Of a stretch of DNA of 44,500 nucleotides, positions 1,598 to 18,220 are shown one piece after another (within the stretch, counting starts at the first letter, position 1; every line of letters starts with the position of its first letter). The notes under the pieces are model-generated. The model saw only the letters and a program-made list of their open reading frames with translations. It was not told the origin of the DNA and made no database searches. The translations under genes and the position numbers were made by a program. This DNA comes from Vitreoscilla sp. (lineage in GTDB: Bacteria; Pseudomonadota; Gammaproteobacteria; Burkholderiales; Burkholderiaceae_C). The stretch lies in NCBI GenBank assembly GCA_018780145.1, contig JADMKA010000030.1, positions 1 to 44,500 on the forward strand, given 5' to 3'.

Positions 1598-2902
1598 TCA
1601 GGCCGAACCGTGCTTGGTCTCGAAGCGGATGCCGATGTCCTTCAGCAGCGGGGTCGGCAACACGCCGCCGGCACAGACGATGAGCTCGTCGTTGGGCAGT
1701 TCGCGGGCCGAGCCGTCGGCCAATTGCAGGAACACCGAGCGCTCGGTGATGCGCCGCACCTGCGAGCTGAGCAGCACCTCCACCCGGCCCTCGGCCTGCA
1801 GGCGGGCCAGGGCGTCGCGGTTCTTGCCCTTCACGCGCGAGAAGGCCTCGCTGCGGTAGCTCAGGCTGACCCGCGTGCCTGCCGTGCCGGCCAGGGCGAT
1901 GGCGGCCTCCAGCGCGCTGTCGCCGCCGCCGACCACCAGCACGGCCTGGCCCGCGTACTGTTCGGGGTCGACGAGGCGGTAGGCGACCTTGGGCAGTTCC
2001 TCGCCCGGCACGTCCAGCGTGCGCGGCGTGCCGCGCCGCCCGATGGCCAGCAGCACCGAGCGGGCCCGGTGCTGGCTGCGCGTGGTGGTGACGACGAAGC
2101 CATCTCCTTCGGCGACGATGCTTTCCATGCGCTCGCCGAACTGGATCACCAGCTTGAACTTCAGCATCACGCCATGCCAGAACTCCAGCAGGCTCTCCTT
2201 GCTGATCTCGTGCATCTTCACCTGGCCGACCAGCGCCAGCTGCACCGGCGCCGTCATGGCCACCTTCTGGCGCGGGTAGTGGAAGATCGAGCCACCGAGC
2301 GAGCTCTCCTGCTCGACGATGCGGTAGCGCAGCCCCTTCTCGATCGCCGACAAGCCCGCAGACAAGCCCGCCGGCCCCGCGCCGACGATCACCACGTCCA
2401 GCGCGTCGTTTCCATCGGCCCTGCCCCTCAGCGCCACCGCCTCCATCGCCTGGCGGCCCTGCTCGGCGGCCTTGCGGATCAGGCCCATGCCGCCCAGCTC
2501 GCCGGCGATGAAGATGCCGGGGATGTTGGTCTCGAAGTTGGGCCGCACCAGCGGGATGTCGACCCCGCGCTTCTCGGTGCCGAAGACCAGCGAGATCGCG
2601 TCGAAGGGGCAGGCCGCATGGCAGGCGCCATGCCCGATGCAGGCCGAGGCGTTGATCAACGTGGCCTTGCCGTTCACCATGCCCAGGGCATGCTCGGGGC
2701 AGACCTTCACGCAGGATCCCGAGCCGATGCAGCGCGCCGGGTCGACCACCGGGTGCAGGGAGGGGGGCTCGTTCAGGCCGGCGGCCACCGCCTCGCCCAG
2801 CTGGTGGGCATGCGCCCGTTCCTTGCGCCCGCGCTGCCAGAGGTGCCAGACCACAGCCACCACCGGCAACGCCAGGTAGGGCCAGGCCATCTCCAGGTTC
2901 AT
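1598..2902 (-). CDS. Membrane-anchored ferredoxin-FAD/NAD(P) oxidoreductase
   Basis: A 434-residue fusion and the last gene of the haem/ccm operon, 26 bases after ccmI. The start at 2902 has GGAGGG just upstream; the longer reading frame before it is the antiparallel shadow of ccmI. Order: membrane helix (about residues 6-22), two ferredoxin-like cysteine motifs (C58, C64, C68 and C88, C94, C98), a linker resembling the C-terminal segment of thioredoxin reductases (TNIPGIFIAGELGG), an FAD Rossmann fold (VIVGAGPAG, 171-179) and an NAD(P) fold (VLVVGGGDSA, 321-330). It probably moves electrons between a pyridine nucleotide and a membrane partner; given the operon, the multihaem cytochromes are the likely far end of that chain (inference). 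Both iron-sulfur motifs lack the second cysteine of CxxCxxCxxxCP: serine 61 and histidine 91 sit there instead. There is no thioredoxin-reductase CxxC. Confidence 0.85.
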   Translation of the reverse strand: MNLEMAWPYLALPVVAVVWHLWQRGRKERAHAHQLGEAVAAGLNEPPSLHPVVDPARCIGSGSCVKVCPEHALGMVNGKATLINASACIGHGACHAACPFDAISLVFGTEKRGVDIPLVRPNFETNIPGIFIAGELGGMGLIRKAAEQGRQAMEAVALRGRADGNDALDVVIVGAGPAGLSAGLSAIEKGLRYRIVEQESSLGGSIFHYPRQKVAMTAPVQLALVGQVKMHEISKESLLEFWHGVMLKFKLVIQFGERMESIVAEGDGFVVTTTRSQHRARSVLLAIGRRGTPRTLDVPGEELPKVAYRLVDPEQYAGQAVLVVGGGDSALEAAIALAGTAGTRVSLSYRSEAFSRVKGKNRDALARLQAEGRVEVLLSSQVRRITERSVFLQLADGSARELPNDELIVCAGGVLPTPLLKDIGIRFETKHGSA

Positions 2903-2928
2903 GAGCCCTCCCATCGCGTTAACAGGCC

Positions 2929-4176
2929 CTACTTGACGACCTCGGCGATCACGATCTTCAGGCCCTGCTGGCCCGGCGCCACGGCGGCGGACAGGCCCTC
3001 CAGGTCGCCCGGTTGCGGCATTGCCTGGCCCGACTTGGAGACCCGGGCGCCCACGACCACCTGGCTGGCGCCGGACAGCCTGGCCGCCGGGCTCATGGCC
3101 ATCGAATCGTCGAGCGTGAAATCCACCGGCAGGTCGCGCACCCGCTTCTTCAGGATGGCCAGCGGCATGCGGGCGCCAGCGGCGGGGCGGGCGAAGATGA
3201 AGACGGTGTCGTCCGGCGCGGCGCGCGCGGCCAGGGCAGGCGCCAACTCGACCCGGCCGGCGACGCTCTCGCGGCCGGCGGTCAGCGGGTTGGCGGCGGG
3301 CGTGGCGGCCGTGGGTGCCGTGTTGGCCGTGGGCGTGGCGGGCGGCGCCAGAGGCGGCAGGCCTGCGAGTTGGCGTGCTTCGTCCAGGTTGGCGCGGGCC
3401 TGCTTGGCCAGGTCGCTGTCGGCCATGTCGCCGCGCGAACCGGCCACCTTCACGACGCGCTCCCAATGGGCGGCAGCGGCGGCGTAGTCCTTCTTGTCGA
3501 AGGCGATGGTGCCGGCGATCGACAGCGCCTTGAGATTGTCCGGCTCGGCGGCCAGGGCCTGGGTGACCAGCTTCGCCGGTTCACCGTCGAAGCGCTGGCC
3601 CTGGGTCATGGCCAGGGCGTCGGCCAGGTCAGCCAGCGCCTGCGCGTTCTTCGGCTGCAGCGCCAGCACCTTGCGGTAGGCGGGGATGGCCAGGTCGAAC
3701 TTGCCCAGCACGGCCTGAGAGCGGCCCAGCATCAGCCAGCCCTCGGCGTCGTCCGGCCGGCTCTTCAGGCGCTCGGCCAGGCTGGCCACCATGCTCTCGA
3801 TCTGGCCCATGGTCATGGCGTGGGCCGAGGATGCGGCGTCGTCGGGCGCCACAGCGGCGGCCACGGGGCCGGTTGCCGGGGCGGTCTTGATGCCCTCCGG
3901 ATTGCCCAGCCAGGCATAGCCGCCGATGGCGAAGAGCACCGCGAAGCCCGCCAGGCCGGCGATCAGGCGGGGCGAGTGTTTCACGGCAGGAGCCGATGCG
4001 GCAGCGGGTGCAGGCGCTGCGGCGGCGGCATCGGGTGCCGCCAGCACGGCAGCGACCAAGCGCCGTTGCAGGTCGTCGCGGGCCGTGCGGGCGGCGTCCT
4101 CGGGCAGCGCGCCGCTGGCGGCCAGCGCCTCCAGGTGGCGCAGCTGTTGTTTCAGGTCGGCGATCGTGTCGGTCAT
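2929..4176 (-). CDS. ccmI: Cytochrome c biogenesis TPR protein CcmI
   Basis: A 415-residue TPR protein that acts as apocytochrome chaperone in the periplasm, presenting CXXCH sites to CcmH and CcmF. The N-terminus is a charged helical segment (LKQQLRHLEALAASGALP..) followed by one membrane helix (about 72-92), then TPR repeats around residues 120-260, an Ala/Thr/Pro-rich linker, and a C-terminal CcmI-type domain (SVAGRVELAPALAA...VFIFARPAAGARMPLAILKKRV). The start overlaps the ccmH stop by ATGA (4173-4176). Canonical CcmI has two membrane helices flanking a cytoplasmic loop; the first helix appears absent, so the protein starts in what would be the cytoplasmic loop. This is either a short lineage-specific form or a wrong start, but no suitable upstream hydrophobic frame is visible. 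Confidence 0.88.
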   Translation of the reverse strand: MTDTIADLKQQLRHLEALAASGALPEDAARTARDDLQRRLVAAVLAAPDAAAAAPAPAAASAPAVKHSPRLIAGLAGFAVLFAIGGYAWLGNPEGIKTAPATGPVAAAVAPDDAASSAHAMTMGQIESMVASLAERLKSRPDDAEGWLMLGRSQAVLGKFDLAIPAYRKVLALQPKNAQALADLADALAMTQGQRFDGEPAKLVTQALAAEPDNLKALSIAGTIAFDKKDYAAAAAHWERVVKVAGSRGDMADSDLAKQARANLDEARQLAGLPPLAPPATPTANTAPTAATPAANPLTAGRESVAGRVELAPALAARAAPDDTVFIFARPAAGARMPLAILKKRVRDLPVDFTLDDSMAMSPAARLSGASQVVVGARVSKSGQAMPQPGDLEGLSAAVAPGQQGLKIVIAEVVK

Positions 4177-4616
4177 GGGGTGCGGGCGGGGTCGTCCGCC
4201 TCGTCGGGGTCGAAGGCCTCCGCGCCGAGGCGGCTGCGGCGTCGCAGGATCAAGATCAGGCTGGCCAGGCCCAGCACCAGCAGCACGCCGGGGCCGAACC
4301 AGAGCAGGGCGGTGCGCTCGCTCACCGGCGGGCGGTACAGCACGAAGTCGCCGTAACGGTCCGTCATGAAGGCGCGGATCTGGGTTTCATCGCGGCCCTG
4401 GCGCAGCTGATCGCGGATCTGCTGGCGCAGGTCGATGGCCAGCTCGGCGTGCGAGTCGGCGATGGTCTGGTTCTGGCAGACCAGGCAGCGCAGTTCGGTG
4501 GCCAGCGCCATCATGCGGGCCTCCAGCACCGGGTCTTCGGCGACCGGCCGGGCAGTCTGGGCCAGGCTCCAGCCGGACAGCAGGCACAGGAGGGCAGAGA
4601 TCAGCCAGCGTCGCAT
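4173..4616 (-). CDS. ccmH: Cytochrome c maturation thiol reductase CcmH (CcmL)
   Basis: A 147-residue periplasmic, membrane-anchored protein with a signal sequence (MRRWLISALLCLLSGWSLAQ), the diagnostic LRCLVCQN motif with redox cysteines C44 and C47, a three-helix segment after it, and a C-terminal membrane helix (about 103-124). It reduces the apocytochrome CXXCH cysteines so that haem can be attached. It ends in an ATGA overlap with ccmI and starts 7 bases after ccmG. Length and motif match the single-function bacterial CcmH; the TPR part is encoded separately as ccmI. Confidence 0.95.
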   Translation of the reverse strand: MRRWLISALLCLLSGWSLAQTARPVAEDPVLEARMMALATELRCLVCQNQTIADSHAELAIDLRQQIRDQLRQGRDETQIRAFMTDRYGDFVLYRPPVSERTALLWFGPGVLLVLGLASLILILRRRSRLGAEAFDPDEADDPARTP

Positions 4617-4623
4617 CGGCGCC

Positions 4624-5148
4624 TCATTTCGAGAGTTGAGCCAGCAAGGGCTCGACCTTGGTCTTCAGCGCCTCGGGCGTGAGGGCGCCGATGTGCTTGT
4701 AGCGCACCACGCCTTGCCGGTCGATCACGAAAGTTTCCGGCACCCCGTAGACACCGTAGTCCAGGCCGATCCGGCCCTGCGGGTCGAAGAGCGAATCGGT
4801 GTAGGGGTTGCCGAAGCGCGCCAGCCAGGCCGCGCCGGCGCTGCGCTCGTCCTTGTAGTTCAGGCCGATCAGCGTCAGCGCGCGGCCGCGCGCAAACTCC
4901 ACCAGCAGCGGGTGTTCGTCGCGGCAGGCGCCGCACCACGAGGCCCAGACGTTGAGGATCCAGACCTTGCCGCGCAGGTCGTCGCGCTGGATCACCCGGG
5001 TGGGGTCGGCCAGCGTCTCGGTCTTGAAATCCGGCGCCGGCTTGCCGATCAGCGGCGAGGGCACCTCGCGCGGGTCGAGCTTCAGGCCCAGGGCCAGGAA
5101 CACCGCCAGCGCGATGAACAGCACCAAAGGGATCAGGGCGCGCTTCAT
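4624..5148 (-). CDS. ccmG: Thiol:disulfide interchange protein CcmG (DsbE)
   Basis: A 174-residue thioredoxin-fold protein tethered by an N-terminal helix (residues 4-22). The active site is WASWCGACRDEHP with C72 and C75, and a downstream cis-proline region VYGVPETFVIDRQG is typical of the DsbE subfamily. It passes reductant received from CcdA/DsbD to CcmH or apocytochrome in the periplasm. The start overlaps the ccmF stop by ATGA (5145-5148). The reductant donor (CcdA or DsbD) is not encoded in the window and must lie elsewhere. Confidence 0.95.
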   Translation of the reverse strand: MKRALIPLVLFIALAVFLALGLKLDPREVPSPLIGKPAPDFKTETLADPTRVIQRDDLRGKVWILNVWASWCGACRDEHPLLVEFARGRALTLIGLNYKDERSAGAAWLARFGNPYTDSLFDPQGRIGLDYGVYGVPETFVIDRQGVVRYKHIGALTPEALKTKVEPLLAQLSK

Positions 5149-7100
5149 GCCTTCACCGTGGCGTCGAGGTGGGACATGCCCTGCGCGGCGGCAGACTTCG
5201 CGCGCCGGTAGCGCCGGTCGGTGATCGCCAGCAGGCCGCCCAAGCCCATGATCACGCAGCCCAGCCAGATCCAGATCACGAAGGGCTTGTGCTGCACCCG
5301 CAGCGTCCAGGCGCCGTTGGGCAGCGGCTCGCCGAGCGAGACATAGAGGTCGCGCAGGCCGTTGGTGTCGATGGCGGCCTCGGTCATCGGGTTCTGCTGC
5401 ACGCGGTAGATGCGCTTCTCGGGCGACATCGTGGTCAGCAACTGGCCGTTACGCGTGACCTCGACGGTGCCGCGCGCCGCCATGTAGTTCGGCCCGGTGA
5501 CGTTGCTCACGCCGCGCAGGGTGAACAGGTAGCCGCCGACCTCGACCGACTCGCCGGTCCGCATCTGCACATCGCGTTCGCTCTCGTGGGTGCGCACCGC
5601 GGTGACGCCGACGATGAACGCCGCCACGCCCAGGTGCGCCAGCCACATGCCCCACTGCGCGCGGGTCACCGACGGCAGGTTCTTCAACCAGCCCGCCAGG
5701 TCGGTGGCCACACCAGCCACCACCCAGGTGGCCATCGCGTAGCCAGCGATGGACCAGGCCGAGACGTGCCCCGCCCACCAGGCGGTGACCGTGGCCACCA
5801 GCACCGTCACCAGGGCCGACCACTTCACGCGGCTGGCCAGCGAGGGCAGGCTGTCGCCCTTCCAGCGTGCCATCGGGCCGACACCGAGCAGGAACACCAG
5901 CGGCGCCATCAGCCAGCGGAACACGGTGTCGAAGTAGGGCGGGCCGACCGAGATCTTGCCCAGGCCCAACGCGTCGAGGAACAGCGGGTACAACGTGCCG
6001 AGCAGCACCGTGCCGGTGGCCACCACCAGCAGCACGTTGTTGGCCAGCAGGGCGGATTCCTTCGAGACCGTGCCGAAGCGCTGCCCCAGGCCGACCTGCG
6101 CAGCGCGCCAGGCATACAGCGTCAGCGAGCCCCCGACCACCACCACCAGGAAGGCCAGGATGAACAGGCCGCGACGCGGATCGGTGGCGAACGCGTGAAC
6201 CGAAGACAGCACGCCCGAGCGGACCAGGAAGGTGCCCAGCAGCGACAGCGAGAAGGCGACGATCGCCAGCAGCACCGTCCAGGCCTTGAAGCCGCCGCGC
6301 TTCTCGGTCACCGCCAGCGAGTGCATCAGCGCGGTGCCGATCAGCCACGGCATGAAGGAGGCGTTCTCCACCGGATCCCAGAACCACCAGCCGCCCCAGC
6401 CCAGCTCGTAGTAGGCCCAGGCGCTGCCCAGCGCGATGCCCAGCGTCAGGAAGATCCAGGCGGCAATCGTCCAGGGGCGGGACCAGCGCGCCCAGGTGGC
6501 GTCGAGCTGGCCGCCGAGAAGAGCGGCGATGGCAAAGGAAAACGCCACCGAGAAGCCCACATAGCCCATGTACAGCATGGGCGGGTGGAAGACCATGCCC
6601 GGGTCCTGCAGCAGCGGGTTCAGGTCACGCCCGTCCGGCGCCGCCGGCAGCAGCCGCTCGAAGGGGTTCGAGGTGGTCAGCATGAACAGCAGGAACCCGG
6701 CACTGACCAGGGCCATGACGCCCAGCACCCGCGACACGAACGCCGCGGGCAGGCTGCGGCTGAAGCTGGCCACGGCCTGCATCCAGACCATCAGCATCAT
6801 CACCCACAGCAGCAGCGAGCCCTCGTGGCCGCCCCAGACGCCCGCCACGCGGTACTCCAGCGGCAGGTGCGAGTTGGAGTTGGAGGCGACGTAGAGCACC
6901 GAGAAGTCGTTGCGCACGAAGCTGACCACCAGGGCCGCGAAGGCCCCCGCAACCAGCAGGGTCTGCACCAGCGTCAGCGGCCGGACCAGGGCCATCCAGT
7001 CCGCGCGGTCGCGGTGCGCCCCCACCGTGCCGAGCACCGCCTGGGCCAGCGAAAGGGCCAGCGCCAGCAGCAGCGCCAGGTTGCCGAGTTCGGGGATCAT
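5145..7100 (-). CDS. ccmF: Haem lyase subunit CcmF
   Basis: A 651-residue polytopic membrane protein, normal length for CcmF. It carries the WWD domain [20 protein letters not shown] at about 234-253, where holo-CcmE haem docks, with conserved histidines on periplasmic loops (H79 in SNSHLPL, H172 in FHPPMLY) and a large C-terminal periplasmic region before the last helix. With CcmH and CcmI it forms the synthetase that ligates haem to CXXCH. It overlaps ccmE by ATGA (7097-7100) and ccmG by ATGA. The long plus-strand frames over this region are antisense shadows. Confidence 0.96.
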
Positions 7101-7558
7101 CGCTTGGCCTCCAGCAGCGTCGGTGCCGACTGGGGCTGGTTCGCCTGCGCCCGCTTCAGGGCTTCGGCGGCTTCGGGCGGCATGTAGTTCTCGTCGTGCT
7201 TGGCGAGCACCTCGCGGGCGGCGAAGACGCCATCGGCGCCCAGCGTGCCTTGCGCCACCACGCCCTTGCCCTCCTTGAACAGATCCGGCAGCGGGCCCTG
7301 GTAGGTCACCGGCACGTCGCGCTGGGTGTCGGTGACGACGAAGCGCACCTGCACGCCGTCACGCTGCACCGAGCCTTCGCGCACCAGGCCACCGAGGCGG
7401 AACGCACGCTGGGTCGGGGCTTCGCCCGAGGCCACCTGGGCTGGCGTGAAGAAGAACACCAGGTTGCTCTGGAAGGCGTTCAGCACCAGCGCGGTGGCGG
7501 CGGCCAGCGCCAGCAGCACGCCCCCGACCAGGGCGGCGCGTTTCGCGCGCGGGGTCAT
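7097..7558 (-). CDS. ccmE: Periplasmic haem chaperone CcmE
   Basis: A 153-residue protein with an N-terminal membrane anchor (residues 8-26) and an OB-fold periplasmic domain. The haem-binding HxxxY motif is present (H121 and Y125 in KHDENY); the histidine forms the covalent bond to haem in the proteobacterial family. It receives haem from CcmC and hands it to CcmF/H. The start overlaps ccmD and the end overlaps ccmF, each by ATGA. The C-terminal tail (LKRAQANQ...) is flexible, as is usual. Confidence 0.95.
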
Positions 7559-7704
7559 TGGCCGGCCCCCGCCTGCGCACGGGCGCGCTTCAGCCGCGCG
7601 AGCACCAGCCAGGCCTCGGCGACCAGCGCGATCAGGACCGGCGCGTAGGCGCCCCAGACGAAGACGCCGTGGCCCTGCAAGTTGAAGAAGTTGTCCATGT
7701 TCAT
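7555..7704 (-). CDS. ccmD: Haem exporter small subunit CcmD
   Basis: A 49-residue protein. The [31 protein letters not shown] segment has the typical CcmD plan: short N-terminus with HG and a W-x-AY motif, one membrane helix (about 13-36), then a basic tail. The start at 7704 overlaps the ccmC stop as ATGA, matching the coupling seen through the whole cluster; ATG at 7698 would give 47 residues and is also possible. CcmD stabilises CcmE with CcmC and helps release holo-CcmE from CcmABC. Confidence 0.9.
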
Positions 7705-8441
7705 TCTTTCCATTCCTGTTCGTAGCTCAGGGCCCGCGCGCGCGTCAGCGTGGCGGCGATGGCGTGGGCCCAGAAGGCCACCGTCATCAGACCCAGGGCC
7801 AGCAGCATCGTCTTGGCCATGGTGGGCGCCGCGGTCATGCTGATGGAGGCGCCTTGGTGCAAAGTGTTCCACCAACGCACGGAAAAATAGATGATGGGCA
7901 CGTTCAGCGCGCCCACCAGGGCCAGCAGGGCGCCGGCCTGGGCGGCGCGGCGGTCGTCGTCGATCGATTCCACCAGCGCGATGTAGCCCAGGTAGAGCAG
8001 CAGCAGGATCAGCTCGGAGGTGAGCCGCGCGTCCCAGACCCACCAGGTGCCCCAGGTCGGCTGGCCCCACAGCGCGCCGGTCCACAGGGCCATGGCGGTG
8101 TAGAGCGCGCCGGAGGGCGCCAGGGCCCTTGCCAGCCGCGAGGCCATGCGAGCCTTCAGCACCCAGCCGATCACCGCCCAGAAGGCGATGGCCAGGTAGC
8201 AGATCATCGACAACCAGGCGGCCGGCACGTGGATGAAGAGGATGCGGTAGGCCTCGCCCTGGGTGGCGTCGGTCGGCGCGACGATGAAGCCCACATACAG
8301 GCCGGCGAGCCCGGCCAGCACGGCGACGGCCCAGCACCAGGGCGCGAGGCGCGAGGCCAGCGCCTCGAAGCGCACCGGCGAGGCAAAGCGCGTCCAGCGC
8401 GCGCGCGGCTCGGTGGTGGGGGGGAGGGAGGCGTCCGTCAT
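7701..8441 (-). CDS. ccmC: Haem-handling membrane protein CcmC
   Basis: A 246-residue, six-helix protein with the WWD domain ([14 protein letters not shown], about 130-143) and the two external haem-ligand histidines expected of the family (H71 in FIHVPAAW and H195 in NTLHQGAS). It loads haem onto CcmE in the periplasm. The N-terminal 25 residues before the first helix are longer than in E. coli and rich in Pro/Arg. It lies 4 bases after ccmB and overlaps ccmD by ATGA. Confidence 0.96.
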
Positions 8442-8445
8442 CGGG

Positions 8446-9183
8446 TCATTCCACGGAAATGCGCAAGGCCGCGGCGGTGGCCGGCGGGGCGACGAGCGCG
8501 GTGAGGATCAGCAGGGCACCGAGCAGCGACAGCGCGGCGCCGGCCGGCTCGCCGTTCAAGGCGGCCACCACGGCCCCGCTGCCGAACACCAGCGCCGGCA
8601 TGGCCAGCGGCAGCACCAGCAGGAAGACCAGCGCCGCGCCGTTGCGCAGGCCCAGCGCGAGGGCGGCCCCCAGGGCGCCCAGCATCGCCATCACCGGCGT
8701 GCCCAGCAGCAGGCTGGCCACCAGCACGCCCACCGCATGGCCGCTCAGGCCGAAGGCGAGCCCGGCGAGCGGCGCCACCAGCACCAGCGGCCCGCCGCTG
8801 AGCAGCCACTGGGCCAGGACCCGGCCGGCCACCAGGCCCACCAACGAGCGGCGGCCGATCAGCATCTGCTCCAGCGAGCCGTCGGCCAGGTCGGCGCTGA
8901 ACATCTGGTTCACCGACAGCATCATCGACAACAGCGCGCAGACCCACACGACACCGGGCGCCACTCGCCGTAGCAGCGTCGGGTCGGCGCCCAGCCCGAG
9001 CGGGAACAGGCTCAGCGCCGCGACGAAGAAGGCCAGCGGCAGCAGCCAGGCCGTGCGTTGACGGCCGGCCACGCGCAGGTCGCGGGCGATCACGCCCAGG
9101 CGCCGGGCTGGCAGCGTGGCCAGCGCAGGCACGACAGGGTCCGCTCGGCCCTCGGCCAGCGATGCCGGAACGCGAGCGGTCAT
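8446..9183 (-). CDS. ccmB: Haem exporter permease CcmB
   Basis: A 245-residue, six-helix ABC permease of the CcmB family. Recognisable segments are the GVIARDLRVAGRQRTAWLLPLAFF start, VWVCALLSMMLSVNQMFSADLADGSLEQMLI and the GTPVMAMLGALGAALALGLRNGAAL region. The start at 9183 overlaps ccmA as ATGA; a longer frame running to 9369 is a shadow over ccmA. The N-terminus is about 20 residues longer than typical (MTARVPASLAEG...). It works with CcmA in ATP-driven release of holo-CcmE. Confidence 0.93.
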   Translation of the reverse strand: MTARVPASLAEGRADPVVPALATLPARRLGVIARDLRVAGRQRTAWLLPLAFFVAALSLFPLGLGADPTLLRRVAPGVVWVCALLSMMLSVNQMFSADLADGSLEQMLIGRRSLVGLVAGRVLAQWLLSGGPLVLVAPLAGLAFGLSGHAVGVLVASLLLGTPVMAMLGALGAALALGLRNGAALVFLLVLPLAMPALVFGSGAVVAALNGEPAGAALSLLGALLILTALVAPPATAAALRISVE

Positions 9184-9854: not shown

Positions 9855-12042
9855 GTCGATACCCCAGCGAGTAGTACAGGCGGACCGAATTCTCGTTCTG
9901 CGTCGGGCTGCGGCTGTGGCTGGCTTCGAGGTTGAAATCCGACTCCAGAACCCACTTCTCGCCGCCCCGCCAAGTCAGGCGCAGGCCGGGCGCCCAACGC
10001 GAGGTCTGCAAGCCGCTGGGCCCGTTCTGCTGGTAGAAGCGCAACGAGGGCTCGACCTGCCAGCGCTCGGCCAGCACCGACAGGTTGTTGTACGAGGCCA
10101 GCCAGCCAGTGTACGTCGGGCCCCGCACGGCGGTCACGTTGAAGACGTGGGTATCGCGCTCGGAGTAGAGGTTGCTGCCGATGGCCTGCACGCCGGCCGA
10201 CCACAGGTTGCCGGTGGCCGGGATGCCATCGGGCAGGATGCCCGGCACCGGCGCGATGGCACCGATGTTGGTCAGGCGCAGGTCGGCGCCGACCTGCCAC
10301 TGGGTGTTCAGCGGCGTGGTCACGCCCAGCAGGCCCTGGGTGGCATAGGCCGTGGTGTCGGCGACCTGCTGGCGCAGCAGGTCGATGGGCTTGAGGGCCA
10401 GCAGGTCGGTCAGCTTGCGCGGCAGCACGGTCAGCAGCGGGTCCGGGAAGAACAGCGCGTTGCCCAGCATCAGCATGGGCGTGGCGCGGCGGTCCAGCAG
10501 CAGGTTGACGGTGGTGTTGTCGGCCGAGGTCCAGGTGCCCTGCACCGAGCCGATGTTGACCCCCTGCAGCGTCAGGTCGTACTCGAACTGCGTGAACACC
10601 GAGATGCCGGGCTCGACGTAGCGGACATCGCCGCCCAGCGCGCGGCGATCCACCTCGCCGTCGATCATCTGCTGGATCAGGTAGGTGTTGGCGCCCAGGC
10701 CGGGCGCCAGCGACTCGGCGTCGAGCGAGAAGCCGTAGAAATGCCGCTTCGTGTCGAGCAGCTTGTCGGTCGGCAGGCCCGCCACGGCGCTGAGCTTCCA
10801 CTTGGGCTGGAAGGCCCAGCCGAGCTGCACGCCGTCGAAGCGGCCCAGCACGCCGCCACCCAGGCCGGACTGGCGGCCAACGCGCGCCGACAGGCCGGGC
10901 CGGGTTTCCTTCCAGTCCACATAGAGCGCCGAGAGCTTGTTCTCCTCGGCCTGGCCGGGCATCTGGTTGACGGTGAAGCTGTCGCGGAAGACGAAGCGCA
11001 GGTCACGCTCCGCGTCCTTCGAGCGCCAGTTCAGGTCGACGCTGGACAGCAGCTGCTTCTGGTCGATGCCGGCCAGGGTCTGGTCGGAGATGACCACCGG
11101 CAGCTGGCCTTCCAGCGGCGTGTCCTTCAGCTGCGTCTGGACCTTGGAGTTGCCGCCGTAGTAGTACTGCGAGATGCCGCCGACCAGCATCGTGGTGCCC
11201 TGGCGCGCGGGCTCGGCGGAGGGCGCTGCCGAGCCGGCGGCCGCGCCCTCCGCCCGTGGCAGGCCGGCCAGCGTGACGCGGGCTTGGTCGGCGTCCGGGC
11301 CCTCGGGATAGAGCTTCAGGAACAGCTCGAACTCGCTGCGGGCGCCCGCCACGTCGCCTTGCGCCATCCGGGCCTGGCCCACCAGCGCCTGGGCCTCGCG
11401 GGTGTGTGGGTTGGGCGGCAGGTTCAGCGCCTCGTTGAGCGTCTCGACGGCCAGTGCGGCCTGGCCCTTGTCCAGCGCCGCACGCGCCTGGGCCAGCAAC
11501 TCGGCGCCGCGAGCATCCACCTGCGCGTCGCCACCGGCCGGGGCAGTGGGTGGCGGCGCCGGGGCACGCGGCGCCGTCTTCGCGGCGGGCGCCGAGAACA
11601 TCTTCGGCCCCTGGCCCTCCAGCACGATCTCGATGCTGCGCCGGTCGCCGCCGCTGCGCACCTTGAAGCGCGTCGGCGGGTCCAGGCGCACGATCAGGCG
11701 GCGGTCGTTCTCGCCGCTGCCGCCGCCCTCTTCGCTGATGCTGACGCGGGGGATGCCGTCGCCGCCGACCTGGCGGCGCTCACCGTCGATGAAGTTCGGC
11801 TTGTCGCGGCTGGGTACCACGTCGTAGACGATCTGCACCAGGTCGTTGGAGCTCGCCGCCACCGAGCGCCGGTACTGCACCGGCACGGTGAAGCGCACCT
11901 GGACGATGGCGTTGTCGCCCTCGCGGCGCAGCTCCACCTCCTCGATCACCTGCGCCTGCGCGAGGCCGGCGGCACACAGCAGCGCCAGCGGCGCGAGTCG
12001 GACATGGGGCGCGACGGGCCGCCCGAACAGCTGGTTCTTCAA
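9844..12042 (-). CDS. AMIN/TPR outer-membrane beta-barrel protein
   Basis: A 732-residue exported protein of no recognised named family. Order: signal peptide (about 1-30, LLCAAGLAQA), an AMIN-like beta domain (about 32-145, with VEEVEL..EGDNAIVQVRF and DRRLIVRLDPPTRF), a Pro/Ala linker, TPR-type helices (about 180-260), then about 450 residues of alternating amphipathic strands ending YYSLGYRLDF. The terminal phenylalanine is the usual BAM recognition signature of outer-membrane barrels. The start is TTG at 12042 with GAGAGGG about 8 bases upstream. It lies between the 41-haem cytochrome gene and ccmA. By position it may be the porin or docking partner that carries the cytochromes to or across the outer membrane, like MtrB/PioB, but it lacks the N-terminal CXXC of MtrB and I see no clear relationship to it. 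Confidence 0.75.
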   Translation of the reverse strand: MKNQLFGRPVAPHVRLAPLALLCAAGLAQAQVIEEVELRREGDNAIVQVRFTVPVQYRRSVAASSNDLVQIVYDVVPSRDKPNFIDGERRQVGGDGIPRVSISEEGGGSGENDRRLIVRLDPPTRFKVRSGGDRRSIEIVLEGQGPKMFSAPAAKTAPRAPAPPPTAPAGGDAQVDARGAELLAQARAALDKGQAALAVETLNEALNLPPNPHTREAQALVGQARMAQGDVAGARSEFELFLKLYPEGPDADQARVTLAGLPRAEGAAAGSAAPSAEPARQGTTMLVGGISQYYYGGNSKVQTQLKDTPLEGQLPVVISDQTLAGIDQKQLLSSVDLNWRSKDAERDLRFVFRDSFTVNQMPGQAEENKLSALYVDWKETRPGLSARVGRQSGLGGGVLGRFDGVQLGWAFQPKWKLSAVAGLPTDKLLDTKRHFYGFSLDAESLAPGLGANTYLIQQMIDGEVDRRALGGDVRYVEPGISVFTQFEYDLTLQGVNIGSVQGTWTSADNTTVNLLLDRRATPMLMLGNALFFPDPLLTVLPRKLTDLLALKPIDLLRQQVADTTAYATQGLLGVTTPLNTQWQVGADLRLTNIGAIAPVPGILPDGIPATGNLWSAGVQAIGSNLYSERDTHVFNVTAVRGPTYTGWLASYNNLSVLAERWQVEPSLRFYQQNGPSGLQTSRWAPGLRLTWRGGEKWVLESDFNLEASHSRSPTQNENSVRLYYSLGYRLDF

Positions 12043-12054
12043 AGTGGGTCCCTC

Positions 12055-15000
12055 TCAATCCCATTCCACATACGTCTGGCCCTTGTTGCCCAGCGGCCGG
12101 TGGCAACCGGATTCCGAGCAATCCAGGGGCGTCTTGCCTTTGGCCTCGTGGGTCAGCGACTCTCGTTCCATGTCACCCAGGTAGCGGGTGCCTGTGGCAT
12201 GGCAGCCCTTGCACCAGCCGGCCCCGCCGCCCAGGCTGCCGTTGTGGTTCATCCGCATCGAGGACCAGCTGGTGGTCGTCGTGTGGCAGGCCTTGCAGTC
12301 CATCGCCGAGCCGTTGAGCAGCTGGGTGTTCTCGGGGATGTGGTTGGTGGGCTTGGCGTCCAGCCCCTGGCTGGTGTAGGTCGGGATGTGGCAGGTCTTG
12401 CAGGCCTGCGAAGTCAATGCCGCGTGGTTGGTCGTCACCGCCGTGTCCCAGCCTGCCTGCGACTTGTGGCAGCCGTCGCACTTCAGCGTGGCCACCTGGA
12501 TCGGGATGTGGTTGGCCGGCTTGCCCTTGGCCGTCACGTTGTTGTGGCAGGTGTCGCAGGTGCCCGAGCCGACCTGGTTGTTCGGCGCGTGCTTGTAGAC
12601 CACGTTGCTCCAGTCGCTGGTCGACTTGTGGCAAGACTCACAGGTGGTGGCCCCGGTGTGGATGGGGTCCGCGGGCTTGCCGCGTGCGGCCAGGTAGCTG
12701 CCGGTGTGGCAGGTGGCGCACTGCGTGCTGATGCTGAAGTAGGCGTGCACGCGCCCCGGGTTCCAGCTGGTGTAGCCGCTCTTGTGGCAGGCGTCGCAGT
12801 TGGCGGTGGCGGTGACCGCCACCAGCGCATACGGGACATGGTTGCCCGGCTTGCCATCGGCAGGCGGGTAGGTGCCGGTGTGGCACGACGCGCACTGCGC
12901 GGTGACCACCACCTGGGTGTGGTTCCACTTGGTCGGCTTCCAGGCCGTCACGCTGTGGCAGGCATAGCAGTTCGTCGTGCCCACCGGGATGTGGTTGGTG
13001 GGCTTGCCAGGTGCGGTGCTGCCGTTGTGGCAGCTGGCGCAGTTGGTGCTCTGGTTGAACTTGCTGTGGTCGACCTTGTTGGTGTCCCAGCTGGCCGTGT
13101 TGTGGCAGCTCTCGCAGGTGGTGGCGCCCACGTGGATCGCGTCGGCCGGCTTGCCGCGGGCGGCCAGGTAGCTGCCGGTGTGGCAGGTGGCGCACAGCGA
13201 GCTGACGCTGAAGTAGGCGTGGTAGCGGCCCGGGTTCCAGGAGGCGTAGCCGGCCTTGTGGCAGGCGTCGCAGTTGGCACTGGCCGACGGCGGGATCAAG
13301 GCATACGGAATGTGGTTGGCGGGTTTGCCATCCGCCGGCGGGTAGGTGCCGGTGTGGCAGGACGCGCACTTCGCGGTGACCACCACCTGGGTGTGGTTCC
13401 ACTTGGTCGGCTTCCAGGCTGTCACGCCATGGCAGGCGTAGCAATTGGTCAGGCCCACCGGGATGTGGGTGGCGGGCTTGCCGGGCGCGCTGCTGCCGTT
13501 GTGGCAGCTGGCGCAGTTGGTGGTCTGGTTGAACTTGCTGTGGTCCACGTTGTTGGTGTTCCACGAGCCGGTGGTGTGGCAGTTCTCGCAGGTGGTCACG
13601 CCGGCATGGGTGCTGTCGGCCGGCTTGCCGCGCGCGCCCAGGTAGCTGCCGGTGTGGCAGGTGGCGCACTGCGAACTGACCGTGTAGTTGGCGTGGTAGG
13701 TGCCCGCGTCCCAGCTGTTGAACCCGGCCTTGTGGCAGGCGTCGCAGTTGGCGTTCGACGAGCCCCCGATCAAGGTGTAGGGGATGTGGTTGGCGGGTTT
13801 GCCATCGGCGGGCGGGTAGGTGCCGGTGTGGCACGAGGCGCACTGTGCGGTGACCACCACCTGGGTGTGGTTCCACTTGGTCGGCTTCCAGGACGCCACG
13901 CCATGGCAGGCGTAGCAATTGGTGGTGCCCACCGGCATGTGGGTGGCGGGCTTGCCGGGTGCGCTGCTGCCGTTGTGGCAGCTGGCGCAGTTGGTGGTCT
14001 GGTTGTATTTGCTGTGGTCCACGTTGCTGGTGTTCCACGAGCCGGTGGTGTGGCAGTTCTCGCAGGTGGTCACACCGGCATGGGTGCTGTCGGCTGGTTT
14101 GCCGCGCGCGCCCAGGTAGCTGCCGGTGTGGCAGGTGGCGCATTGGGTGCTGGTCGAGAAGTTGGCGTGGTACCTGCCCGGGTCCCAGTTGCTGAAACCC
14201 GCCTTGTGGCAGGCGTCGCAGTTGGCATTGGCGGAGTTGGCCAGCTGCGCGTAGGGGATGTGGTTGCCCGGCTTGCCGTCGGCCGGCGGGTAGCTGCCGG
14301 TGTGGCATGCCGAGCACTGCGCGGTGACGCGCACCTGGGTGTGGTTCCACTTGCTCGGTTTCCACGCGTTCACGCCGTGGCAGGCGTAGCAGTTGGTCGC
14401 GCCGACGGGCATGTGGGTGGCGGGTTTGCCGGGTGCGGCGTTGCCGTTGTGGCAACTGGCGCAGTTGGTCGTCTGGTTGAAGCTCGCATGGTCCACCTGC
14501 GCGCCACCCCAACCGCCGGTGTTGTGGCAGTTCTCGCAGGCGGTGACGCCAGCGTGGGTGCTGTCGGCCGGTTTGCCGCGCGCGGCCAGGTAGCTGCCGG
14601 TGTGGCAGGTGGCGCACTGCGTGCTGGTGTTGAAGTTGCCGTGGAAGCGGCCGGTCGTCCAGGTCGAGTAGCCACCCCGGTGGCAGGCATCGCAGTTGGC
14701 ACCGGAGCTGACCGCCACCTGGGCGTAGGGGATGTGGTTGCCGGGCTTGCCGTCGGCGGGCGGGTAGGTGCCGGTGTGGCAGGCTGCGCACTGCGCGGTG
14801 ACCACCACCTGCGTGTGGTTCCAGCGTGTCGATTTCCAGGTGAACGTGCTGTGGCAAGCCGCGCAGTTGGTGGCAGCCACGGGCATGTGGGTGGCCGGCT
14901 TGCCGGTGGCCTGGCTGCCGTTGTGGCAGGTGCCGCAGGTGGTGTTCTGGTCGAAGCCGCTGTGGTCGAAGCCGATGGCCGGCGTCCAGCCGTTCGCGGT

Positions 15001-15468
15001 GTGGCAGGTGTCGCAACTGGCGGTGGTGGCCAGGTGGTCGCGCGTCTTGCCGGCGGCGATGCTGCCGTTGTGGCAGCTCTGGCAGGTGCCTGGCGAGACG
15101 GTGGCGTGGCTGAAGCGCGCCCCGGCGAAGCGGCGGGTGTCGTGGCAGGAATCGCAGCTGGCCTGCGTGGGCACGTGCTGGGCCGGCATCACCGTGTTGT
15201 TGCGGGCCAGCCGGGCGCCAGCGCTGTGGCAACTGGCGCAATCCTTCGGCGTGCCCTTGAAGACGCCGTTCACGTGGCAGGACTCGCAGCGCTCGTTGCT
15301 GTGGGCACCGGTCAAGGCGTAGCCGGTGGAGACGTGGTCGAAGGCCTTCGGCGCCGCCGCGCCCGAGGTTGCCTGGGCGAAGGCCGGCAGCGAGATCAAC
15401 AGGGTGAGCAACAGGCCCAGGGCCAGGCCCCACAGCACCGAGCCGGTGACGACGAGCGAGCGCTTCAT
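12055..15468 (-). CDS. Giant multihaem c-type cytochrome (41 haem motifs)
   Basis: A 1137-residue secreted cytochrome. The start at 15468 overlaps the upstream cytochrome stop by ATGA and begins a signal peptide (residues 1-32, ending PAFAQA). By direct count it has 40 CXXCH motifs plus one CX4CH near the C-terminus (CSESGCH), so up to 41 haems, about one per 28 residues. Residues about 202-996 consist of tandem blocks of 158 residues with six haems each, in the order CYACH, CASCH (TGTYPPADGKP), CDACH, CATCH (TGSYLAARGKPAD), CENCH, CASCH (NGSSAPGKPATH). Extra His residues after conserved GKP.(N/T)H turns may be distal ligands. It belongs to the broad cytochrome c3/c7-like multihaem group; the arrangement suggests a long linear haem wire. 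There is no lipobox and no obvious membrane anchor after the signal. Confidence 0.93.
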   Translation of the reverse strand: MKRSLVVTGSVLWGLALGLLLTLLISLPAFAQATSGAAAPKAFDHVSTGYALTGAHSNERCESCHVNGVFKGTPKDCASCHSAGARLARNNTVMPAQHVPTQASCDSCHDTRRFAGARFSHATVSPGTCQSCHNGSIAAGKTRDHLATTASCDTCHTANGWTPAIGFDHSGFDQNTTCGTCHNGSQATGKPATHMPVAATNCAACHSTFTWKSTRWNHTQVVVTAQCAACHTGTYPPADGKPGNHIPYAQVAVSSGANCDACHRGGYSTWTTGRFHGNFNTSTQCATCHTGSYLAARGKPADSTHAGVTACENCHNTGGWGGAQVDHASFNQTTNCASCHNGNAAPGKPATHMPVGATNCYACHGVNAWKPSKWNHTQVRVTAQCSACHTGSYPPADGKPGNHIPYAQLANSANANCDACHKAGFSNWDPGRYHANFSTSTQCATCHTGSYLGARGKPADSTHAGVTTCENCHTTGSWNTSNVDHSKYNQTTNCASCHNGSSAPGKPATHMPVGTTNCYACHGVASWKPTKWNHTQVVVTAQCASCHTGTYPPADGKPANHIPYTLIGGSSNANCDACHKAGFNSWDAGTYHANYTVSSQCATCHTGSYLGARGKPADSTHAGVTTCENCHTTGSWNTNNVDHSKFNQTTNCASCHNGSSAPGKPATHIPVGLTNCYACHGVTAWKPTKWNHTQVVVTAKCASCHTGTYPPADGKPANHIPYALIPPSASANCDACHKAGYASWNPGRYHAYFSVSSLCATCHTGSYLAARGKPADAIHVGATTCESCHNTASWDTNKVDHSKFNQSTNCASCHNGSTAPGKPTNHIPVGTTNCYACHSVTAWKPTKWNHTQVVVTAQCASCHTGTYPPADGKPGNHVPYALVAVTATANCDACHKSGYTSWNPGRVHAYFSISTQCATCHTGSYLAARGKPADPIHTGATTCESCHKSTSDWSNVVYKHAPNNQVGSGTCDTCHNNVTAKGKPANHIPIQVATLKCDGCHKSQAGWDTAVTTNHAALTSQACKTCHIPTYTSQGLDAKPTNHIPENTQLLNGSAMDCKACHTTTTSWSSMRMNHNGSLGGGAGWCKGCHATGTRYLGDMERESLTHEAKGKTPLDCSESGCHRPLGNKGQTYVEWD
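12481..14865 (-). repeat. Five 474-bp tandem repeats inside the giant cytochrome gene
   Basis: The first cysteine codon of equivalent haem motifs falls at 14865, 14391, 13917, 13443 and 12969: four successive intervals of exactly 474 bp (158 codons). The next equivalent motif is at 12480 (489 bp), so the fifth unit has diverged. Third-base identity is high between the central units, which points to recent duplication or gene conversion. Each unit encodes six haem sites. Confidence 0.95.
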
Positions 15469-17285
15469 GGCGTGCCTCCAGGGGTGGCCGTGCCGCCCGT
15501 GCCGGGGCGGCGCGCGCGCAGTGATTTCCAATCGGTGACGACATGGCAGGTGTCGCAGCGTGAGCCGAACCCGCCGTCGTGGGCGTCGTCGCTGCGGTGG
15601 CAGGCGATGCACTCGCGGCCGACCGGGGCGATGGCCTTGCCGGCGGGCGCGGGCTGCCGGTGGCAGGCGGCGCAGGAGGCCCGAGCGTGCCCGCCCTCCA
15701 GCGGGTAGCGGGCCTGCCTGGCGTGGTCGTAGCGCACCAGGGCCCAGGCGCGCTGGTTGTGGCAGCTCTCGCAGGCGGTGCCGAGTGCGTCCTTGTGCTT
15801 GTCGTCCTTGCGGTGGCAGCCCACGCAGTCACGAGCCGCGTCGCGGTAGCGCGGCGTGGCATGGCAGGCGCTGCATTTCAGCGGGAGGTGCGCGCCGACG
15901 AGCGGGAACCGCGCCCGGGCGTGGTCGAAGCGTGGCGTGTCGCGCCAGCGCACATCGGTGTGGCAGGACTCGCAACGCTCGCCGAGTTGCGCCTCGTGCT
16001 TGTCGTCCTTCTTGTGGCAGCCGATGCAGTCGCGCGGCGTGTCGCGGTAGTGCTTCAGGTCGGCGTGGCAGGATTTGCACGTGACCGCCTGCACCGCATG
16101 CCCGCCGCGCAGCGCGAAGCGGGTCACTTCGTGGTCGAAGCGAGGGATCTTCCAGGTTCTTTCACCATGGCAGGCACCGCAACCCTCGCCCAGGTTGCGC
16201 TCATGCTTGTCGTCGGCGCGGTGGCACCCAATGCACGTGCTGGGCGCGTCCCGGTAGCTGGTGGTCTTGTGGCAGGCCTTGCAGTCGGCATCGGCATGCT
16301 TGCCCAGCAGCGGGAAGCGGCTGCGGTCGTGGTCGAAGCGTGCGGTTTCCTTCCAGCTCGATTCCTGGTGGCAAGCCTGGCACTCGGTGCCCAGGCTGCC
16401 CTTGTGCTTGTCGTCCTTCTTGTGGCAAGACAGGCAATCGTTGCCCAGCTTGTCGCGGTAGAGCGCATTCGGCACGGTGCCGGTGTGGCAGTTGTCGCAC
16501 TTCACCGCCCGGTGCTTGCCGCGCAACAGGTAGCGCGTATCGGTGTCGTGGTTGAAGCTGATGCCGCGCCAGGATTTGGCGTCGTGGCAGCTCTCGCACT
16601 TGTCGCCATAGCGGCCCTTGTGGCCCTTGTCGCGGTCGTCGGTGCGGTGGCAGCCGACGCAGGTGCCCGGGGCATCCGCATAGGCCTGGCCGTCGCGGTG
16701 GCAGTCGCGGCATTTGACGTCGACATGCTTGCCCTTGAGCGCGAATTTCGTGGTGTCGTGGTCGAACTTCGCCTCGGCCCAGCGGTTCTCGGTGTGGCAG
16801 TCGGCGCACTTGGGGCCGAGCGAGCCCTTGTGCACGTCGTCCTTGCGGTGGCAGGCGTTGCAGTCTTGCGGCGCCTCGGCCCAGCGCTTGCCGCTGGTGT
16901 GGCACTTGGCACAGTCCACCGGGGCGTGCGCGCCCTGCAGCGCCCAGTCGGTCTGCTTGTGGTCGAAGCTCTTCTTGTCCAGCGGGGCGATCTGCATCTC
17001 ACGCCCCTTGTGGTCGGTGTGGCAAGTCCTGCAGGCCTGCGGCTTCTGCCGGCCATGAAAGCCCGCCCGCGACTTGATGTCCTGGCCCACTTCCTTGTGG
17101 CACTCGGTGCAGCGGCCGTCCTGCGCGGCGCGGTCGAAGCGCACGTGACAGCTCGCGCACTGGTCCTCCACCTTCACGTGCCCTCGGATCACGGGGCCCG
17201 GCGAGAGGGCGGATTCCAGCCCCTGGGCGTGCAGGTGCGGTGCCACGAGCAGCAGCAGGCCGAGCAGGAGGAGCCGCCATGCCAT
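15465..17285 (-). CDS. Multihaem c-type cytochrome (24 haem motifs)
   Basis: A 606-residue secreted cytochrome. The start at 17285 yields a signal peptide (MAWRLLLLGLLLLVAPHLHAQ); it lies 4 bases after the membrane-protein stop. I count 24 CXXCH motifs. From about residue 110 the protein is built of 66-72-residue units with three haems each, recognisable by the pattern FDHD..(R/K)F.L.GKH..(V/A).C..CH, then Y.DAP..C.GCHR.DD.HKG.LG..C..CH....W. The DD.HK element after the second haem of each unit adds a His likely to serve as distal ligand. Spacing and style differ from the 41-haem partner, so the two are not recent duplicates. It is probably a periplasmic or surface electron conduit. The tail (last 20 residues) is Arg/Gly/Thr/Pro-rich and haem-free. 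Confidence 0.92.
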   Translation of the reverse strand: MAWRLLLLGLLLLVAPHLHAQGLESALSPGPVIRGHVKVEDQCASCHVRFDRAAQDGRCTECHKEVGQDIKSRAGFHGRQKPQACRTCHTDHKGREMQIAPLDKKSFDHKQTDWALQGAHAPVDCAKCHTSGKRWAEAPQDCNACHRKDDVHKGSLGPKCADCHTENRWAEAKFDHDTTKFALKGKHVDVKCRDCHRDGQAYADAPGTCVGCHRTDDRDKGHKGRYGDKCESCHDAKSWRGISFNHDTDTRYLLRGKHRAVKCDNCHTGTVPNALYRDKLGNDCLSCHKKDDKHKGSLGTECQACHQESSWKETARFDHDRSRFPLLGKHADADCKACHKTTSYRDAPSTCIGCHRADDKHERNLGEGCGACHGERTWKIPRFDHEVTRFALRGGHAVQAVTCKSCHADLKHYRDTPRDCIGCHKKDDKHEAQLGERCESCHTDVRWRDTPRFDHARARFPLVGAHLPLKCSACHATPRYRDAARDCVGCHRKDDKHKDALGTACESCHNQRAWALVRYDHARQARYPLEGGHARASCAACHRQPAPAGKAIAPVGRECIACHRSDDAHDGGFGSRCDTCHVVTDWKSLRARRPGTGGTATPGGTP

Positions 17286-17289
17286 TGCG

Positions 17290-18195
17290 TCAGTAGGCGT
17301 GCACCGCCACCACATGGGCGATCGCGCACAGGACCATCACGTAGACGAAGGGCAGGTGCAGCACATGCCACAACGCGAACAGCCGCTCCCAGGCGGCCAG
17401 CTGTGTCACCTTCAGGGTCTGGCGCAGGTGCTCGTCGACCTGCGCGCGCCATTTGCTGCGGATCTTGTGGCGCTGCGATCGGCCGAGCTTTTTCGGCGAG
17501 GCCGCGAGCGCCTGGTCGATCAGGCGCCGCAGATCGCGCCGGGCCACGATTGCCGCCATGCCGCTGCGCACGGCCCGCCGCCAGACAGTGGCGCTGCCGG
17601 TGGCTGGTGCCAGCGCAGTCTGCTCAAACTCGAACAGGCGTTGGCGCACGTGCGGGGCCAGGGCGAAGGCCATCGCGAGGCGCTCGTGGGTGTCGTCCAG
17701 CGCGGCGCGCAGTTCGCCCAGATCGGCACGCTGGCCGTCCAGGCCGCGGTGCACGTGCACGTAAAGGTAGCGCCCGATCAGCCCGCTGCCGGCCACCACG
17801 CCCATCGAGATCAGCGCCACCGCCGCATTCAGCGAGCCGAAGCTGAAGTTGCAGTGCACCAGGATCAGCCAGGGGCCGGCCACGCCCAAGGTCATGTGGA
17901 AGACGAACCAATGGCGTGTGGCGCCCATCGATCGCATCCAGCGCACCCGCTTGCGCAAGGGGTAGAGAAACAAGGCCACCATGATCACGCCGCCCGCCAC
18001 GCCCAGCCAGTAGCCGGTGTCGGAGCCCGCTTCGACCTGCGCCGTGCGGCCCACCCACCAGGCGGAAGCCACTGCCAACAGAGCCGCGAGCCAGGGCCAC
18101 CAGGCCCGCCAGGACGCCGCCGGGCGCGGCTGGGTGGCGGTGCGTTGCCGTGGCGGGCTGTGCGAAGGCATGGTGGCCGGGGCGGGGGATGGCAC
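17290..18195 (-). CDS. His-rich membrane protein, putative b-type cytochrome electron entry subunit
   Basis: A 301-residue protein, first gene of the haem operon. Five probable membrane helices: about 32-48, 62-80, 97-114, 123-146 and 274-298, with a basic cytoplasmic stretch between helices 4 and 5. Histidines occur in the helices with the 14-residue spacing seen in bis-His b-haem helices: H100 and H114 in helix 3, H280 and H294 in helix 5, plus H277 and H299. This suggests a b-type di-haem membrane subunit that passes electrons to the 24-haem cytochrome; the family is not one I can name, and the haem assignment is inference. The first ATG (18195) is used; ATG at 18171 is an alternative. A perfect inverted repeat lies 26 bases upstream of the start. 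Confidence 0.65.
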   Translation of the reverse strand: MPSPAPATMPSHSPPRQRTATQPRPAASWRAWWPWLAALLAVASAWWVGRTAQVEAGSDTGYWLGVAGGVIMVALFLYPLRKRVRWMRSMGATRHWFVFHMTLGVAGPWLILVHCNFSFGSLNAAVALISMGVVAGSGLIGRYLYVHVHRGLDGQRADLGELRAALDDTHERLAMAFALAPHVRQRLFEFEQTALAPATGSATVWRRAVRSGMAAIVARRDLRRLIDQALAASPKKLGRSQRHKIRSKWRAQVDEHLRQTLKVTQLAAWERLFALWHVLHLPFVYVMVLCAIAHVVAVHAY

Positions 18196-18220
18196 GGTTG
18201 GATGGCTCGATGGTGTTTAA

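Follow-up and report, generated by a model that had tools for sequence, protein, structure and literature searches.

Background

The porin-cytochrome cluster PCC3 was described in the text of He et al. (2017, PMC5566968) as four genes, encoding a porin, a large multihaem cytochrome, a periplasmic cytochrome with twenty-odd haems and an inner-membrane protein (IMP) of ~ 300 aa with an SGXXG motif, two WX3HX13H motifs and five transmembrane helices. Its cytochromes have 22–39 residues per haem and up to 85 sites, which places them among the largest haem counts described, and its hosts were reported among the Alpha-, Beta- and Gammaproteobacteria, with Leptothrix cholodnii SP-6 as one named strain. 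The same four components are given in the PCC3 passages of PMC10734462, PMC8788666 and PMC12442390, and PMC13386937 reports PCC3 in Leptothrix-group genomes, giving no component list there. Here we describe a 44,500-base stretch of Vitreoscilla sp. DNA (the window, one complete contig, G000:C271) in which a minus-strand run of fourteen genes probably encodes an NAD(P)H-linked, largely self-equipped PCC3: the conduit, a membrane-anchored NAD(P)H reductase containing flavin adenine dinucleotide (FAD) and iron-sulphur (Fe-S) motifs, and a complete System I set for haem attachment.

In their text, the published accounts list no FAD/Fe-S protein, CcmI-like protein or ccm genes beside the four PCC3 genes, and none of those searched ties an FAD/Fe-S protein or ccm to PCC3 (the FAD gene may be drawn in the figures or supplements of He et al.). 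Nor does the text of the cited PCC3 literature report a demonstrated function or extracellular electron transfer activity. The FAD/Fe-S partner is the new part of our result and the most useful one: a constant NAD(P)H-type partner is a concrete, testable entry point for PCC3, and because of it PCC3 may act as an exporter of electrons and not solely as an acceptor from iron.

The idea of a ccm-linked conduit is already known for mtrCAB, since Baker et al. (2022, PMC8805035) reported complete ccmA–I beside six mtrCAB clusters, mostly in Betaproteobacteria, and System II elsewhere in the genomes of four strains (in one, the ccm set is partial and lies at a contig end). Our locus shares with these clusters a conduit beside a complete ccm operon and System II elsewhere; it differs in its conduit proteins and in its permuted FAD/Fe-S protein, which the text of that report does not mention.

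A gene run with the parts of PCC3

The fourteen near-continuous genes of the original prediction were all present, from ~ 18195 to 1598, in a draft genome of 5.57 Mb (280 contigs, 96.5% complete). With the starts chosen here, the widest intergenic gap was 26 bases (ccmI to the FAD gene), and the 4-base overlaps, said to make up most junctions, accounted for 7 of the 13. All genes are on the minus strand:

17290..18171 (-), IMP, PCC3 inner-membrane protein, probably di-b-haem; alternative GTG start at 18195
15465..17285 (-), MHC24, predicted periplasmic 24-haem cytochrome; Sec-type signal-like start, 24 CXXCH
12055..15468 (-), MHC41, large 41-site cytochrome, presumed extracellular; 40 CXXCH and one CX4CH
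9844..12042 (-), predicted outer-membrane barrel (porin) with a TPR segment (~ 180–255) near the N-terminus
9180..9854 (-), ccmA; TIGR01189, E 1.8e-57, above cut-off
8446..9183 (-), ccmB; PF03379, E 2.6e-58
7701..8441 (-), ccmC; TIGR01191, E 7.8e-64
7555..7704 (-), ccmD; TIGR03141, E 1.5e-7, above cut-off; PF04995
7097..7558 (-), ccmE; NF009729, E 1.3e-62
5145..7100 (-), ccmF, the sole ccmF found in the genome; PF16327, E 5.9e-126
4624..5148 (-), ccmG (DsbE); TIGR00385, E 3.4e-52
4173..4616 (-), ccmH; PF03918, E 1.6e-46
2929..4176 (-), ccmI (CycH), apocytochrome chaperone; Ig_CycH and TPR_CcmH_CycH
1598..2902 (-), FAD/Fe-S protein (FAD protein); N-terminal helix, two altered Fe-S motifs, circularly permuted TrxR-like FAD/NAD(P) domain; alternative ATG at 2914

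The barrel, both cytochromes and the membrane protein fit PCC3 in their sequence features. A putative porin gene lies beside two multihaem cytochrome genes and an IMP gene, in the order IMP–MHC24–MHC41–barrel. The IMP, 293 aa long, carries two WX3HX13H motifs (W88-H92-H106 and W268-H272-H286) and SGXXG (S129-G130-G133), and its four histidines were invariant in 65 of 65 sequences, a set that includes the window and counts a few genomes twice (e.g. L078/G236 and L117/G154). Its AlphaFold2 (AF2) model was all-helical (pLDDT 87.5) and is compatible with five transmembrane helices; no Pfam family matched the protein.

The totals of 41 haems and 65 motifs originally predicted are reached only by counting one CX4CH, as MHC41 contains 40 CXXCH; the 24 CXXCH of MHC24 stand. 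Shuffling each cytochrome 1000 times gave means of 0.3 (MHC24) and 0.4 (MHC41) CXXCH and a maximum of 4. At 25.3 (MHC24) and 27.7 (MHC41), the residues per haem fall inside the PCC3 range. Of the 20 other PCC3 genomes of the order, 17 have a 24-motif cytochrome beside IMP and two (G023 and G166) a 27-motif one, the G324 copy being cut by a contig end; these numbers agree with the 21, 24 and 27 motifs given for periplasmic PCC3 subunits of Gallionellaceae in PMC10734462. The partner gene corresponding to MHC41 was highly variable in site number, reaching 63.

A search of 399 genomes of the order, the own genome among them, detected the barrel in 23, one of these by a weak partial match; the same genome set underlies the FAD, IMP and ccmF counts below. 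It matched no porin family in family-model scans, and a first scan of genome contigs with the barrel alone returned no relatives. An MtrAB, MtoAB or PioAB conduit was rejected on this absence of a porin family match and on the decahaem model TIGR03508, for which MHC41 (147.7 bits) and MHC24 (21.6 bits) stayed below the cut-off of 192.2. General family scans turned up none of the OmbB, OmaB and OmcB families, with which no direct comparison was made. The prediction of a trans-envelope haem conduit is thus supported by the PCC3 features. The further view that the block matches no named conduit was dropped for the barrel and the membrane protein, because the PCC3 motifs fit; it holds for the FAD protein, which is absent from the text of the PCC3 accounts cited above.

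The FAD protein as a constant partner of PCC3

Using E-value limits of our choice (FAD protein 1e-60, IMP 1e-15, barrel 1e-5; the IMP limit was fixed after a paralogue in the own genome had been seen at 1.3e-6), the FAD protein was detected in 21 of the 399 genomes and the IMP in exactly the same 21. The barrel genomes were those 21 together with G170 (85% complete, 4.9-kb contig) and G381 (the weak partial match, with a stop). Fisher values for this co-occurrence ignore kinship and are descriptive only, because related genomes are not independent.

Stretches were fetched around the barrel in all 22 non-window barrel genomes, and additionally around FAD/IMP or IMP in six (G216, G295, G324, G206, G396 and G323). 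The FAD and IMP genes were linked to PCC3 genes in each of the 21 genomes. In 18 they are divergent neighbours, the distance separating the two matches being 187–439 bases in 17 of these and 973 in G390. The own genome (G000) and G264 have the FAD gene after ccmI, where it closes the gene run that contains IMP. The G323 run is broken by contig ends: one contig stops within the IMP–multihaem cytochrome part, and a second starts with a haem-motif frame, the barrel, ccm and the FAD gene. Barrel, membrane and FAD proteins therefore occur as a block, with cytochromes beside them, as the co-occurrence check proposed with the original prediction had anticipated.

A wider GTDB scan with an FAD protein alignment showed that at least 550 stretches encode a relative (E ≤ 1e-3), of which the best 80 loci were analysed. 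Of these 80, 67 carried one or more parts of PCC3, counting IMP, the barrel and cytochromes with at least 10 motifs. Where flanks of 10 kb before the FAD gene and 9 kb or more after it were available, 31 of 32 loci carried a PCC3 part (IMP in 26, barrel in 25, a cytochrome with at least 10 motifs in 29); among the loci lacking one, 12 of 13 were cut within 5.3 kb on one or both sides. In a table of PMC10734462 that covers 87 iron-oxidiser genomes, 41 have a '4Fe-4S ferredoxin' cluster, which might correspond to the FAD protein, and 42 the periplasmic PCC3 subunit. We propose that the FAD protein belongs to the PCC3 core and has been overlooked.

A permuted, probable reductase with altered Fe-S motifs

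The FAD protein starts with a helix (3–40 in the AF2 model); behind it come an Fe-S domain with two motifs and an FAD/NAD(P) domain resembling TrxR/YpdA. C58, C64, C68, C88, H91, C94 and C98 were invariant in 96 sequences. At the second cysteine position of motif 1, these had Ser in 79, Ala in 10, Cys in 5 and Gly in 2, and at that of motif 2, His in all 96. The protein would accordingly be expected to bear a Cys3His cluster and an unusual first cluster, the latter perhaps of higher potential than that of a usual ferredoxin.

The FAD segment that is C-terminal in the normal fold sits ahead of the FAD/NAD(P) domain (~ 113–160), and in native order it formed a separate weak match to the YpdA chain C-terminus in two YpdA alignments. 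Appending it behind the C-terminal part raised the score in 13 of 14 PDB sequences (7a7b from 90.5 to 100.5 bits, 6gas from 45.6 to 55.6; 4zn0 dropped from 45.9 to 44.9) and the number of PDB matches at E ≤ 1e-10 from 14 to 23. A control N-terminal segment of equal length gave no gain above 0.4 bits and 13 matches at that limit. Since the moved segment extends PDB alignments and an unrelated one does not, the FAD protein is, as judged from these alignments, circularly permuted. Its best PDB matches, the TrxR-type ferredoxin-NADP reductases and YpdA/Bdr, share the FAD/NAD(P) fold; unlike them, it has the N-terminal helix, two altered Fe-S motifs and the permutation, and a TrxR-type reductase or YpdA of normal order was rejected on the position of the FAD segment.

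IMP homologues beside other reductases and System II

The IMP paralogue of the own genome (contig C202; 33% identity over 116 aa, H-X13-H twice) lies in a triad (~ 66925–70979; L011, L143) with an FNR-type 2Fe-2S protein (FAD_binding_6, NAD_binding_1 and Fer2) and an open frame containing 8 CXXCH; another frame, with 4 CXXCH, is nearby. Like triads, with cytochrome c3, were found on Bradyrhizobium BTAi1 plasmid pBBta01 (L132, 4236–12882), where flanking zwf, gnd and tal suggest NADPH supply, and on a Methylophaga pinxianii plasmid (L133, 10073–23884), ~ 3 kb from a complete ccm operon. That operon includes a CcdA gene, and metal-transport genes are near. As in our locus, a homologous IMP stands beside an NAD(P)H flavo-Fe-S protein and a multihaem cytochrome; the triads differ in their smaller cytochromes and unrelated reductase fold, and no porin gene is annotated beside the two plasmid triads. 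This adjacency of two unrelated NAD(P)H-type reductase folds to IMP-family proteins is the main reason why we propose that the FAD protein sits where the conduit opens to the cytoplasm.

When 72,556 plasmids were searched by tblastn for the FAD protein (E ≤ 1e-60), a single record matched, pEMTOL02 of Emticicia oligotrophica DSM 17448 (Bacteroidota). Its plus-strand run encodes a CcsBA fusion (ResB and Cytochrom_C_asm), an IMP (28% identity, E 4e-25, two HX13H at corresponding places, SGXXG), the FAD protein (46% identity), a 23-motif cytochrome, a 40-motif cytochrome and a 538-aa protein. The last showed no similarity to the window barrel; its position suggests a porin. Repeating the plasmid search with the Emticicia FAD protein as query (E ≤ 1e-40) yielded nothing new except a partial relative carried by a Pseudoalteromonas plasmid.

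Haem-attachment genes

All nine ccm genes of the original prediction matched family models (CcmH and CcmI via Pfam, below NCBIfam cut-offs), making the System I set for cytochrome c maturation, ccmABCDEFGHI, complete in the window. The predicted coupling to haem attachment recurs in relatives: 18 of the 80 loci had at least two ccm genes besides ccmI, L068 and L091 among them without a PCC3 part on the stretch. The barrel–ccm–FAD order was seen again in G323, Ideonella alba (L051), Sphaerotilus mobilis (L053), L059, L066, L079 and L088, and in Rubrivivax albus (L093), where only ccmF, H and I were called. The ccm–PCC3 linkage is thus recurrent, with a precedent in mtrCAB, and its repetition, once with CcsBA, makes it testable whether giant cytochromes need their own or a particular haem-attachment system.

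The own genome has one ccmF and, on another contig, one System II ResB; cytochrome c1 and FixO are other c-type clients. Across the order, ccmF was found in 246 of the 399 genomes and in 20 of the 21 with PCC3 (not found in G216, 90% complete), and ResB in 4 of these 21. In a sample of 12 genomes of the family, ccmF was present in 3 of 3 PCC3 genomes vs 2 of 9 others, and ResB in 10 of 12 (not found in G264 and G323, both PCC3 genomes); as 7 of the 9 PCC3-negative genomes had ResB without ccmF, System II alone suffices there. Among 47 genomes behind the 80 loci, our choice of which favoured Burkholderiales-like and ccm-linked loci, 44 had ccmF and 7 ResB. In three no ccmF was found; one of them, L091, carries ccmG, H and I next to the FAD gene on a short contig.

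These counts bear on the rival possibility that the ccm genes are the genome's general cytochrome c maturation set, lying by chance inside the PCC3 operon, to which we give nearly, if not quite, even weight. The single ccmF of the own genome, with other c-type clients present, agrees with it; G323, L053, L059, L066 and L088 each have one ccmF, the PCC3-linked copy, and no ResB match, so that these ccm genes presumably serve housekeeping as well, and a set clearly dedicated to the conduit was dropped as a reading because it is the sole system found in these relatives. It is opposed by the ResB of the own genome and of Ideonella alba, both of which, like L079, have both systems and a single ccmF, and by the PCC3-negative family genomes that have ResB without ccmF. 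The description of the window set as 'not housekeeping ccm' is therefore possible for the own genome, where ResB exists besides the single ccmF and either system could serve other c-type cytochromes, and presumably does not hold in the five relatives.

CcmI/CycH-like genes adjoin the barrel or FAD gene in several loci, some of them contig-cut, without ccmF, G or H nearby. The CycH TPR domain was present in six of six such proteins examined and Ig_CycH in five. In a tree of CcmI-like proteins the barrel-side and FAD-side copies were scattered, with no clean PCC3-specific clade. G264, which has a second ccmF match, carries a ccmA–H run without ccmI at 1.76 Mb and a ccmI-like gene inside its PCC3 run. 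CcmI-like proteins may chaperone the giant apocytochromes. Near a single PCC3, G028 (L042/L043) and L062 each have two CcmI-like genes; one adjoins the barrel, and the other is part of the ccm run in G028 and a neighbour of the FAD gene in L062.

A proposed route for electrons and its rivals

To the described conduit the locus would add an entry module, namely a flavo-iron-sulphur reductase for NAD(P)H, anchored in the membrane and facing the cytoplasm, and, as a second addition, the complete System I haem-attachment set. With this putative topology and these presumed partner contacts, electrons would pass from NAD(P)H to FAD and the two Fe-S clusters of the FAD protein, from there to the two b haems of the IMP, across the periplasm on MHC24, and through the barrel to MHC41 outside. 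We prefer this outward direction because it would be downhill and the operon has no ion pump. FAD midpoints of TrxR-type ferredoxin-NADP reductases, reported near -0.24 and -0.285 V (PMC11121358, PMC9137726), are the basis for expecting flow from NAD(P)H outward to be downhill; by analogy they support the direction without proving it.

With slightly more doubt than conviction, we extend this to PCC3 in general: it may be a five-component, pyridine-nucleotide-driven conduit whose constant fifth part is a permuted, membrane-anchored reductase with a Cys3His and a Cys3(Ser) motif, and which moves as a self-equipped cassette with whichever haem-attachment system is at hand, System I in Burkholderiales and System II on a Bacteroidota plasmid.

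Several observations weigh against the NAD(P)H-linked, self-equipped reading. Foldseek found no significant PDB fold match for the IMP model, cytochrome b included. The AF2 model of the FAD protein was moderate (pLDDT 75, pTM 0.69) and matched YpdA (E 3.5e-18) with low TM-scores, up to 0.31 by query and 0.40 by target; NAD(P) binding is suggested by fold family, and the altered Fe-S motifs may hold clusters of another kind or none at all. L103, a Methylotenera metagenome-assembled genome with full flanks and no PCC3 part within 10 kb, is a true exception to the linkage, and the Pseudoalteromonas relative (35% identity over 70% of the query) lies among glycosyltransferase genes with no annotated cytochrome within 10 kb. 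Linkage to ccm is a minority state, seen among the order genomes in G000, G323, G166 and G028, several of the other genomes having the locus on short contigs.

Some published work on direction also stands on this opposing side. Flow may instead be inward, with MHC41 taking electrons from a donor such as Fe(II) and passing them along the wire to the IMP and the quinone pool, the FAD protein being an accessory that perhaps diverts a share to NAD(P)+. Such flow from an extracellular donor to quinone was proposed by He et al. (PMC5566968); PCC3 occurs in iron oxidisers, including genomes of the Leptothrix/Sphaerotilus group, and the IMP of PCC3 copy 2 in Sideroxydans CL21 increased along with iron-oxidising activity (PMC12442390). 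We nevertheless consider it rather unlikely, as both PCC3 clusters of ES-1 went down on Fe(II) (PMC8788666), the FAD protein is as constant as the IMP, and NAD+ reduction from iron potentials would be uphill with no visible pump. That the FAD protein serves haem attachment, reducing haem or thiols for Ccm, is very improbable and was dropped: its gene follows ccmI in the window and ccmI-like genes adjoin it in several loci, but it tracks the IMP in 21 of 21 genomes and not the far commoner ccmF, is divergent from IMP in most of them, and in Emticicia is placed after IMP and before the cytochromes, in a run that includes a System II gene.

Flanking regions of the window

A consensus scan of 1300–18400 found no sigma-70-like promoter (chance expectation 0.5) and 9 terminator-like sites vs 6.3 expected, both weakly informative. 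Upstream, the run is flanked by a plus-strand NUDIX gene. Downstream, 105–159 bases past the FAD gene, lies a minus-strand Lcl_C-domain gene (284–1492), which was excluded as a member of the system since it had no homologue among the 80 fetched FAD loci. Further along the contig, two neighbouring long stop-to-stop frames on the minus strand (29196–33288) have amidohydrolase domains in their C-terminal halves.

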